This document shows, in pieces, positions 9,171 to 15,209 of a stretch of DNA of 64,000 bases (its first letter is position 1; each line of letters starts with the position of its first letter). The DNA lies in NCBI GenBank assembly GCA_919901745.1, contig CAKKPP010000010.1:1-64000 (forward strand), read 5' to 3'. The notes beneath the pieces were generated by a model. The model was not told the DNA's origin and made no database searches. It worked only from the letters and a program-made list of their open reading frames with translations. The DNA comes from Chloroflexota bacterium (GTDB lineage Bacteria; Chloroflexota; Limnocylindria; Limnocylindrales; CSP1-4). The translations under genes were made by a program, and so were the position numbers.

Positions 9171-10124
9171 TCAGGGCGGCGGGGTGGCGGTGGCGTCCTC
9201 GAGGGCGAGCGCGAGGCGGCCACGCGCCTGCTCGATGGCAATGACCGCCTGGTTGAGGCCGCCGCGCGCGATCTCGGCCATGATCACGACCAGGCCCCGG
9301 GTGTCCGGCGGCAGGTTCGATCGTGCTGCTTTCTCGGCAGCGATTGCCGTCCGGATCTCCGGCGTGACCCGCCCACTGGACGCCCCCAGCAGCTCGTAGA
9401 GATGGCGGAGGGCCTCGTCGTACGTGCGATTTCGCTTGATCCACTCGTCGAGGATCGCCACGTCGGTTGTGTTGGCGAGCTGATCGCGGAGCGCCGTGGC
9501 ATCGTCGAGCATGACAAGGGCTCCGTCGATCGCGACGAGCGCTTCGGGATACCTGGCGGACCGGCCGAACTCCGCGCCGGCCGCGGTCGCCGGATCGTGG
9601 CCCTCGAGGAGCGCGGTCAGCCGCGCCGCAGCGAGGCTCCCGGCGGCCAGACGGGCCCACGCGCTGCTGAGATCGTCGGTCGCGTCGAGCGCGCCAACGA
9701 GGACGGCGTGCTGGGCCAGCGCCGCAGCCGAGATCCGGAGCTCCTGGTGGGGGCCCAGCCCCGGCAGGCCGCGGAGTCGGGTGCGCAGGGCGGACGATTC
9801 GGCCGCGATGCCGAGGGCAAGGACGGACCCCTGGTCCGTCGCAGCGGCGAGCGTCGCCTCATCGCGAGAGACCATCGCCGTGAGAGCGGTCCTTCCCAGC
9901 TCGCCCAGCGTCGCAACGGCGTCGGCAATCCCGGCGAGGTCGACGGCGGCCGCGTCGAGACTCGGTCGAACGGCGCTGTCGCCGGCCCAGGTCAACTCGG
10001 CTCTGGCAGGCGTCCCGGGCAGATGGGCCATCCCGGCCACGATCCCGGCCGATCCGAAGGCCAGGGCCGCCACGGCCAGGACCCACACGACGCCGAGCAC
10101 GATGCGGCGCCCGACAGTCCTCAC
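9171..10124 (-). CDS. membrane-anchored helical protein of unknown function
   Basis: A 317-residue protein with one N-terminal membrane helix (IVLGVVWVLAVAALAFG) and an Ala/Leu-rich, almost entirely helical extracytoplasmic part with no recognised motif or cysteine cluster. The start is taken as the GTG at 10124, six bases downstream of a TACGAT hexamer. Upstream ATGs at 10148 and 10193 would run into the divergent adenosine deaminase gene. It precedes pepA on the same strand with about 118 bases between them. I do not recognise the family; it may be lineage-specific. Confidence 0.6.
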   Translation of the reverse strand: MRTVGRRIVLGVVWVLAVAALAFGSAGIVAGMAHLPGTPARAELTWAGDSAVRPSLDAAAVDLAGIADAVATLGELGRTALTAMVSRDEATLAAATDQGSVLALGIAAESSALRTRLRGLPGLGPHQELRISAAALAQHAVLVGALDATDDLSSAWARLAAGSLAAARLTALLEGHDPATAAGAEFGRSARYPEALVAIDGALVMLDDATALRDQLANTTDVAILDEWIKRNRTYDEALRHLYELLGASSGRVTPEIRTAIAAEKAARSNLPPDTRGLVVIMAEIARGGLNQAVIAIEQARGRLALALEDATATPPP

Positions 10125-10130
10125 CGCCGC

Positions 10131-10140
10131 ATCGTAGCAT
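10131..10140. promoter_or_regulatory. bidirectional leaderless promoter core
   Basis: The 10-base core ATCGTAGCAT contains TAGCAT on the plus strand (10135-10140), six bases before the ATG at 10147. It also contains TACGAT on the minus strand (10131-10136), six bases before the GTG at 10124. The two hexamers overlap by two bases and only 22 bases separate the two start codons, leaving no room for ribosome binding sites. Confidence 0.65.
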
Positions 10141-10146
10141 CGAGCC

Positions 10147-11196
10147 ATGACGATCCCTGCCGCGGTCGAGCTCCAGATCGTCGAGATGCCCAAAGCGGAG
10201 CTCCACCTCCACCTCGACGGGTCGGTCCTGCTGGAAACGGCGCTCGAACTCGCCCGGACGCGCGGTGTGGACGCGCCGCGCGACGTCGACGGGATGCGAG
10301 CACGGCTTGTCGCGCCGCCGCGCTGTGTCGATCAGGCAGAGCTTCTGGGCGCCTTCGACCTGCCGATCGCGCTGCTCCAGGACGCGGAGGCGTTGTCGCG
10401 CGTCACCGAGGAGCTGGTCGTCGCGAAGGCGGCCGACGGTGTCCGCTACGTGGAGATCCGCTGGGGCCCGTTGCTCCACGTCGAGCGCGGGCTGGCGCTT
10501 GCCGACGGGATCGCGGCGGTGTGCGACGGCGCGGACCGCGGTGCTGCCGCGGTGGTGGAGTCCGGCGGTCGAATCGTCGTCCGGCTCATCTGCACCGCCC
10601 TGCGCTCCCACGACCCGGACGAGAACGTTCGACTCGCGGACGTGGCCGGCCGATTCCGCGATCGGGGCCTCGTCGGCTGGGACCTTGCCGGACGCGAGGC
10701 GGAGTTCCCCGACCCCCTCGTGCACGCGCGTGCCTTCGAGGTGGCGCGGGCCGGCGGCCTGCGGATCACGCTGCACGCCGGCGAGTGGGGCGGCGCGGCG
10801 CAGGTGCGGCGTGCGCTTGCGCTGGAGCCGGAGCGGATCGCCCACGGTCCCGGAGCGATCGACGATTCGTCGCTCGTCGCCGAGTTGATCGCCCGAAACG
10901 TGACCCTCGACCTGTGCCCCACCTCCAACGTCCAGGCCGCCATTGTCCGGTCCCTTGCCGGCCATCCCCTCGCCCGTCTCCACCGCGCAGGCGTGCCGGT
11001 CACGCTGTCGACCGACGACCTCACGGTCTCGGACGTCACGCTGTCGGAGGAGTACCGGCGCGCCGTCGCCGAGATCGGCCTGACGCCGGCCGAACTCTGG
11101 GCGATCAACCGCCACGCCCTCGACGTCGCGTTTGCCGACGAGGCGACGTTGCGACCCGTGCGGGCCGCCTTCGACTCGTGGGCGAAGCAATCGTGA
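10147..11196 (+). CDS. add: adenosine deaminase
   Basis: Deaminates adenosine (or a related amino-purine) to inosine in purine salvage. The 349-residue protein has zinc ligands in HLHLDG (H20, H22, D24), the HAGEWGG motif mid-protein with the catalytic Glu, the ERIAHGPGAI block and the STDDLTVSD motif near the C-terminus, all in canonical order. Its stop overlaps the ATG of the double acetyltransferase gene (TGATG), so the two are translationally coupled. Expression appears to be from a leaderless promoter shared with the divergent gene. Substrate could also be a modified purine; family assignment is firm. Confidence 0.9.
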   Translation: MTIPAAVELQIVEMPKAELHLHLDGSVLLETALELARTRGVDAPRDVDGMRARLVAPPRCVDQAELLGAFDLPIALLQDAEALSRVTEELVVAKAADGVRYVEIRWGPLLHVERGLALADGIAAVCDGADRGAAAVVESGGRIVVRLICTALRSHDPDENVRLADVAGRFRDRGLVGWDLAGREAEFPDPLVHARAFEVARAGGLRITLHAGEWGGAAQVRRALALEPERIAHGPGAIDDSSLVAELIARNVTLDLCPTSNVQAAIVRSLAGHPLARLHRAGVPVTLSTDDLTVSDVTLSEEYRRAVAEIGLTPAELWAINRHALDVAFADEATLRPVRAAFDSWAKQS

Positions 11197-13668: not shown

Positions 13669-14509
13669 CCGCGCTGGCCATCGACTGCAGGATCGCCGCC
13701 AGCTCGGCGGCATCGTGGGCAACCGCGTCGGGCCGTTCGTCGGCGGGGAGGGCGTCGTGCTGCTCGCGCGTCGAGACCCCGGTCAGCATGAGGATCGCCC
13801 GCGCCCCGGCGGCGTGGGCCGCGGCGATGTCGGTGTCGAGGCCGTCGCCGATCATCACCGCGTCGCTCGCACGGCGCCCGACTGTCGCAGCCGCGACCTC
13901 GAGGAGGTGCGGGCCGGGCTTGCCGATGACATCGGGGATTGCCTGCGCGGCGGCCTCGACCGCGGCGACGATGCTCCCGGCTCCCGGTCGCAACCCGCGC
14001 TCGGTGGGATAGATGGGGTCCCGATTCGTGGCGATGAAGCGGGCACCGGAGCGGATGCAGTCGGCCGCCACGGCCAGGCGCAGGTACGTGATCTGCGGGT
14101 CCAGGCCGACCACCACGACGTCCGGGGCGCCGGCGGCCTCCCAGCCGCTGATCCCCTCCTGCGCCATCCGTGTCGCCGCGTGGCCCGCCGTCACCACGTC
14201 CAGCCCGACGTCGCGCAGCTCGCGCTCCAGGCCGCTGGCCCCCAGCGCGAGGACGCGCCGCGCGGCCGGATGGTGCTCGCGGATGTGGAGGGCGGTGGCG
14301 CGTGGCGCGGACACGACACGATCGGCAGTCACCGGCGCACCCATGCCGGCAAGCCGGGTGACGTAGTCGGCGCGGTAATGCATCGAGTTGTTCGTGACGT
14401 AGACGACGTCATCGCCGAGCGCGGCGCGAGCGGCGAGCACCGCGGCGACGCCCGGGACGGGTTCGCTACCGCGATAGACGACGCCGTCAAGATCGACGAG
14501 GAGGAGCAT
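13661..14509 (-). CDS. HAD-IIA sugar/nucleotide phosphatase (NagD-like)
   Basis: A 282-residue HAD hydrolase: motif I LLVDLDGVVYRG at the N-terminus with the nucleophile and general-acid Asp, motif II VTNNS, the C2-type cap, motif III lysine in VIGKPGPHLL, and motif IV VMIGDGLDTDI near residue 215. This is the HAD-IIA architecture shared by NagD, pyridoxal phosphatase and nitrophenyl phosphatase-like enzymes. Substrate unknown. Start ATG follows TACGAT-N7 and lacks a Shine-Dalgarno. Its promoter faces away from the NYN gene, whose own TACGAT lies 6 bases further on. Confidence 0.82.
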   Translation of the reverse strand: MLLLVDLDGVVYRGSEPVPGVAAVLAARAALGDDVVYVTNNSMHYRADYVTRLAGMGAPVTADRVVSAPRATALHIREHHPAARRVLALGASGLERELRDVGLDVVTAGHAATRMAQEGISGWEAAGAPDVVVVGLDPQITYLRLAVAADCIRSGARFIATNRDPIYPTERGLRPGAGSIVAAVEAAAQAIPDVIGKPGPHLLEVAAATVGRRASDAVMIGDGLDTDIAAAHAAGARAILMLTGVSTREQHDALPADERPDAVAHDAAELAAILQSMASAVS

Positions 14510-14516
14510 GGCTCCG

Positions 14517-14534
14517 ATCGTAGCCGGTTACGAT
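14517..14534. promoter_or_regulatory. divergent leaderless promoter pair
   Basis: Minus-strand TACGAT (14517-14522) lies 7 bases before the ATG at 14509. Plus-strand TACGAT (14529-14534) lies 6 bases before the GTG at 14541. The starts are 31 bases apart, too close for separate leadered promoters. Confidence 0.6.
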
Positions 14535-14540
14535 GATCCG

Positions 14541-15209
14541 GTGACCCCCAGCGGACCCGCACGTCCCTCGCGTCCCTCGCGTCCCGCCGACCCCCTCGCC
14601 CAGACGGAGCTGCTGCTGGTCGACGCCACCAATCTCGCCCATGTGCTGGCCCGGGCGTCCGGCGGGGCGACGGCGGTGGCGCTGGTGGCCAGGATTCGCA
14701 GCCTGATCCCGCCGGCCGTGACGATCGAGCTGGTGTTCGACGGCGCTGCGGAACCGGGGATGCGCGGCATCCGCATCGCCTCGGGGGTGACGGTCCGCTA
14801 CGGCGGCCGCCAGAGCGCGGACGCGGTCATCGTCGAACGAGTGACCGCGGAAGCCAGGAACGCGGGGCCGGTAGGTGCGGCAGCCATCCTCGTCGTCACC
14901 GACGCTCGCGAACTGCGCGACCTTGTCCGCGTCCGCGGTGCGCGCACGGCCGGCGCCTCGTGGCTCGCGTCGCGCCTCGATCGTTCGGGGCTGGCTGCGC
15001 CGGCGGCCGTCGGAAATCCGCGCCCGCCGGCTCCGTCCACCGGCTCAGGCCACGACCGCGGCCGCGGCAACGACGACGGCCGGGACGTCGACGGCGAAGG
15101 CGACGGCGATGAGAACGCACGACCGGGATGGAAAGCGGGGCGCGGCGCGACCACGAAACGCGGGAATCCGCGACGCAAAGCCCGTGGCGCGAGGCGACCA
15201 CCGGGATAG
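14541..15209 (+). CDS. NYN-domain (YacP/Rae1-like) RNA-processing protein
   Basis: A 222-residue protein. Residues about 25-155 match the NYN/PIN-like nuclease fold: LLLVDATNLAHVL with the first acidic residue, VELVFDG-type strand (IELVFDGAAEPG), RQSADAVIVE with the central Asp, and VVTDARELRD with the last. The C-terminal 65 residues are disordered and very Gly/Asp/Arg rich, ending in a basic stretch likely to bind RNA. The start is placed at the GTG at 14541 by the TACGAT-N6 rule; the open frame to 14508 is not used. It probably cleaves RNA at the ribosome or processes structured RNA, by analogy only. Confidence 0.72.
   Translation: MTPSGPARPSRPSRPADPLAQTELLLVDATNLAHVLARASGGATAVALVARIRSLIPPAVTIELVFDGAAEPGMRGIRIASGVTVRYGGRQSADAVIVERVTAEARNAGPVGAAAILVVTDARELRDLVRVRGARTAGASWLASRLDRSGLAAPAAVGNPRPPAPSTGSGHDRGRGNDDGRDVDGEGDGDENARPGWKAGRGATTKRGNPRRKARGARRPPG

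Follow-up and report, generated by a model that had tools for sequence, protein, structure and literature searches.

A probable doubly leaderless bidirectional promoter between divergent adenosine deaminase and membrane-protein genes in a Limnocylindrales-type Chloroflexota genome

The divergent gene pair and its intergenic core

The window analyzed here is a 64,000-nucleotide stretch of contig CAKKPP010000010.1, from a Limnocylindrales-type Chloroflexota metagenome-assembled genome (MAG; GenBank assembly GCA_919901745.1). Within it, an adenosine deaminase gene and a gene for an uncharacterized membrane-anchored protein are transcribed away from each other (Table 1). The adenosine deaminase matches PF00962 over residues 15 to 336 (E 2.1e-74) and the curated model TIGR01430 at full length (240.7 bits, with a cut-off of 216.55). 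Its neighbor, a member of the family labeled P0001, has a hydrophobic helix at the N-terminus followed by a helical bundle, and searches of Pfam and NCBIfam returned no match. The AlphaFold model of the protein is all-helical (pLDDT 84); no significant match to it was found in the PDB, and the structure route gave no function. The family is nonetheless conserved beside adenosine deaminase in many Limnocylindrales-type genomes, and toward the C-terminus its members share a highly conserved segment near LPPDTRGLVVIMAxIARGGLNQAVIAIE.

Table 1. Coordinates of the genes and putative promoter elements in the window
Feature	Position	Strand	Basis or remark
Uncharacterized membrane-anchored protein gene, P0001 family, 317 aa	9171-10124	-	Predicted transcript start G10124
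Minus spacer GCGGCG	10130-10125	-	Between TACGAT and GTG 10124-10122
Candidate promoter core ATCGTAGCAT, pseudo-symmetrical 10-mer	10131-10140	both	Geometry; kept in relatives
Putative -10 element TACGAT, divergent gene	10131-10136 (10136-10131)	-	6 bases upstream of GTG 10124
Putative -10 element TAGCAT, adenosine deaminase gene	10135-10140	+	6 bases upstream of ATG 10147
Plus spacer CGAGCC	10141-10146	+	Between TAGCAT and ATG 10147
Adenosine deaminase gene, 349 aa	10147-11196	+	PF00962, TIGR01430; predicted transcript start A10147

By inspection, positions 10122 to 10149 read CAC CGCCGC ATCGTAGCAT CGAGCC ATG. The first-pass annotation of this DNA had described a 10-base core that holds TAGCAT for one gene and TACGAT for the other, each six bases before its start codon, and these coordinates and counts are exact. 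It had also put 22 bases between the divergent starts, which the count confirms (10125 to 10146); the first bases of the two codons are 23 apart. The TA at 10135-10136 belongs to both hexamers, and hence two -10-like elements on opposite strands overlap. On the plus strand, ATG 10147 is the earliest possible start, the TAG within TAGCAT being an in-frame stop. On the minus strand, we place the start at GTG 10124 because relatives start 6 to 10 bases after the reverse hexamer; the other candidate, an ATG at 10148-10146, was rejected on the same ground and because its own hexamer would lie downstream of it.

Leaderless signature and other divergent pairs in the genome

Genome statistics were taken from an 864-kb sample of the same genome (69% GC), with gene starts from our own home-made gene calls. 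At called starts, TANNNT is found 59 times at a spacing of six bases (38 ATG and 21 GTG) and 39 times at a spacing of seven (32 ATG and 7 GTG), where about 2 would be expected at each spacing; six bases before any ATG or GTG in the 864 kb, its frequency is 0.0021 (0.21%). The hexamer is thus enriched genome-wide 6 to 7 bases before start codons, as leaderless promoters would be, and 111 of the roughly 734 called genes in the sample, about 15%, carry this signature. Because TANNNT-N6/7-ATG/GTG is so strongly enriched at gene starts, leaderless promoters appear to be widely used in this genome. No -35 signal was seen at the TANNNT-bearing gene starts of the sample, and a sigma-70 scan requiring a -35 element found no match between positions 9900 and 10400 of the window, as expected if the promoters consist of TANNNT only. 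Across the leaderless hexamers overall, the fifth base is A in.49, C in.37, G in.10, and T in.03.

The two-sided pattern CAY-N6-ANNNTANNNT-N6-RTG matches once in the window and in none of 100 dinucleotide shuffles, and the 864-kb sample holds three two-sided 23-bp matches. A second doubly leaderless 23-bp core in this genome lies at C35:11318-11345 (L190, G000), between genes for a TerC-like membrane protein and a MiaB-like enzyme, names that reflect sequence resemblance and not a family search. A two-sided match at C34:49897, with frames of 4 and 46 aa, looks like chance and was set aside. Another overlapping TANNNT pair, with starts 22 bp apart, is found at C4:187703-187725. Among 94 sampled divergent gene pairs, about 17 have TANNNT on both sides at spacings of 5 to 10, and the two hexamers overlap in 2. 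In genus g2, a 23-bp core recurs in about 11 genomes between HAD-hydrolase-like and NYN-like genes, with GACGGTAGCATCG in most (for example, L191 at about 2803-2830; G001:C57:4302-4329). Elsewhere in the window, positions 14509 to 14541 carry divergent TACGAT hexamers on both strands, six bases apart and without overlap, with start codons 32 bp apart.

Conservation of the reverse element and turnover of its partner gene

The relatives compared are Chloroflexota MAGs, labeled Limnocylindrales among others. At 33 non-identical ortholog loci, TAGCAT precedes the adenosine deaminase start at a spacing of 6 to 8. The first-pass annotation had proposed looking for the same divergent core in related genomes, and it is there: the A that completes a reverse TANNNT is present at 30 of these 33 loci, compared with 12 of the 111 leaderless promoters of the own-genome sample. 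The reverse hexamer is absent from L015, L017, and L109. After the orthologs were thinned by protein identity, the proportions were 24/27, 15/17, 13/14, and 9/9 (Fisher p 6e-15 to 3e-8 against the own-genome background), although such clusters correct for phylogeny less than fully and the orthologs are not fully independent. The spacer columns vary among the orthologs while both hexamers persist, and such drift right beside the hexamers speaks against simple inheritance. The fifth position of the reverse hexamer (A in 19, C in 11, and G in 3 of the 33) resembles that of leaderless hexamers generally. Judged by these comparisons, the minus -10 element is under constraint.

A further constraint may act as well, for instance from a regulator, given that GTAGCATC (10134-10141 in the window) is invariant in 33/33 orthologs, which exceeds what TANNNT requires. 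This invariance and the near-symmetry of the core would also fit a transcription-factor operator for adenosine deaminase, formed by the near-palindrome ATCGTAGCATCG, with the likeness to a reverse -10 element being secondary. We regard that reading as very unlikely, because variation within the reverse hexamer is of the kind seen in -10 elements, no gene for a regulator was noticed adjoining the core, and the motif is scarce. The extended form, ATCGTAGCATCG-N4-RTG, occurs in 20 of 107 family genomes, one copy in each, with no match for reversed-pattern controls; of the 14 sites checked, 13 are at an adenosine deaminase start that had already been located and 1 is elsewhere (G038:C53). The core ATCGTAGCAT itself is single copy in 864 kb of the own genome. 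With so few copies, a regulon-wide operator seems unlikely. The two-sided 23-bp pattern gave about 89 matches across the family compared with about 59 for reversed-pattern controls (hand totals), a modest enrichment only, since genus g3 is rich in controls, and not the main evidence. In g3, the reversed control is commoner than the forward pattern, perhaps owing to one conserved chance site.

The gene on the other side of the core changes among relatives. In most of them, the P0001 gene neighbors adenosine deaminase, directly or with a same-strand NAD-epimerase-like gene in between. In the own genome (L009), its start is at spacing 6; for the same membrane protein at L019, L020, L022, L023, L049, and L112, the distance from TACGAT is 7 to 9 bases. 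At L011, L014, L026, and L031, the NAD-epimerase is the partner gene; it starts exactly 6 bases from TACCCT or TACGCT, and its start is unambiguous from the N-terminus M[ST]TxLVTGA[SN]GFVG. On a tree of adenosine deaminase, loci with an epimerase partner are mixed with loci whose partner is the membrane protein while the core persists, a distribution that epimerase loss in several lineages would probably explain. At L034, the epimerase-like gene beside the core appears to be frameshifted after MSTVLVTGASG, possibly through decay or assembly error.

Not every relative has this compact form. Roughly 30 to 140 bases separate the core from the start of the minus gene in about half of the orthologs with TAGCAT, and the transcript of that gene would then carry a leader or come from another promoter. 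In more distant relatives, adenosine deaminase is preceded by TACCAT without a reverse element, and at L070, L073, L080, and L089 the membrane protein has its own TAGACT 6 or 7 bases before ATG, tens to >100 bases away; one and the same gene pair is thus found with fused and with separate promoters. Both the distant starts and the separate promoters would be in keeping with only the adenosine deaminase direction being real, the reverse TACGAT being a product of chance or inheritance and the minus gene being transcribed from elsewhere. We think this improbable, however, because the reverse TANNNT is retained through spacer drift and changes of partner, the epimerase starts that can be placed unambiguously lie exactly 6 bases from it, and the GTG of the own genome falls at exactly that spacing too.

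Proposed function and relation to known promoters

The first-pass annotation had read the site as an overlapping bidirectional leaderless promoter, and that proposal is well supported by the genome-wide signature, the conservation of the reverse -10 element, and the 23-bp class to which the spacing corresponds. The 10131-10140 core is probably a real and functional doubly leaderless bidirectional promoter. We are fairly confident that the 22-bp gap acts as a single promoter of this kind whose two directions are largely independent at low activity. For start sites, polymerase usage, and consequences for expression at the core, we infer the following. A housekeeping-type RNA polymerase would read the gap both ways, from one TANNNT per strand and with no recognizable -35 element. 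Transcription would begin seven bases after each -10 element, on the first base of either start codon. A polymerase in the plus orientation would thus produce a leaderless adenosine deaminase mRNA from A10147, and one in the minus orientation a membrane-protein mRNA, likewise leaderless, from G10124. The constraint on the two hexamers supports transcription both ways indirectly.

The core would be opened by one polymerase at a time, because the shared TA pairs the -12T of each promoter with the -11A of the opposite one, and one polymerase must exclude the other. That two polymerases could not bind at once, as had been suggested, follows from this geometry and is stated for the promoter type (PMC12825309). 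The further suggestion that the two genes are expressed in mutually exclusive or alternating fashion found no support. Such a switch would draw on the joint occupancy being impossible and on the arrangement being conserved in relatives. At five E. coli bidirectional promoters, however, weakening one direction barely changed the other, basal activity being too low for competition, which was seen only upon strong activation of one direction. We therefore do not take exclusive or alternating expression to be the default reading, and the orthologs with separate promoters indicate that exclusion is dispensable; a switch between the adenosine deaminase and membrane-protein genes seems unlikely. At low ordinary activity, the two directions of the bidirectional promoter would probably fire largely independently, with competition arising only under strong one-sided activation.

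If so, all of the intergenic DNA in this very compact divergent arrangement would be one two-way promoter, and both messages would lack leaders. The retention of both hexamers in different genera is comparative evidence that selection can act on the reverse -10 elements of bidirectional promoters, and it comes from an uncultured lineage; the relatives with fused or separate promoters for the same genes offer a natural test of the effect of fusion. A broader proposal is tentative, and we lean against it: that doubly leaderless 23-bp promoters recurrently and selectively couple divergent genes in this lineage, with sharing of or competition for polymerase possibly setting the expression ratio and the core outlasting changes of partner between epimerase and membrane protein.

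Two known classes of promoter are closest to this site. Leaderless genes preceded by TANNNT, about 12 bp ahead of the start codon, are described from Actinobacteria, Deinococcus-Thermus, and some Chloroflexi, and the TAnnnT form is typical of high-GC genomes (PMC3160421). Each half of the core has the same consensus at the same distance from its start codon; the difference is that this site joins two of these units head to head. Leaderless genes average 4.7% in Chloroflexi (PMC3160421), compared with about 15% here by sequence signature. In prokaryotic bidirectional promoters, distances of 10, 18, and 23 between transcription start sites (TSSs) are common (PMC12825309), and divergent TSSs lie 7 to 25 bp apart. 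The core resembles the promoters of Warman, Grainger, and colleagues (PMC12825309, PMC10268837) in its overlapping opposite-strand -10 elements, and its predicted starts, derived from the -10 geometry, fall in the 23-bp TSS class (PMC12825309). It differs from them in having high-GC TANNNT boxes with no obvious -35 element and in that both predicted transcripts are leaderless, the start codons coinciding with the TSSs and the intergenic DNA being all promoter. A literature search of incomplete coverage turned up no earlier account of a bidirectional promoter that is doubly leaderless. The promoter type as such is already described in bacteria, and this site is probably a compact, conserved example of it.
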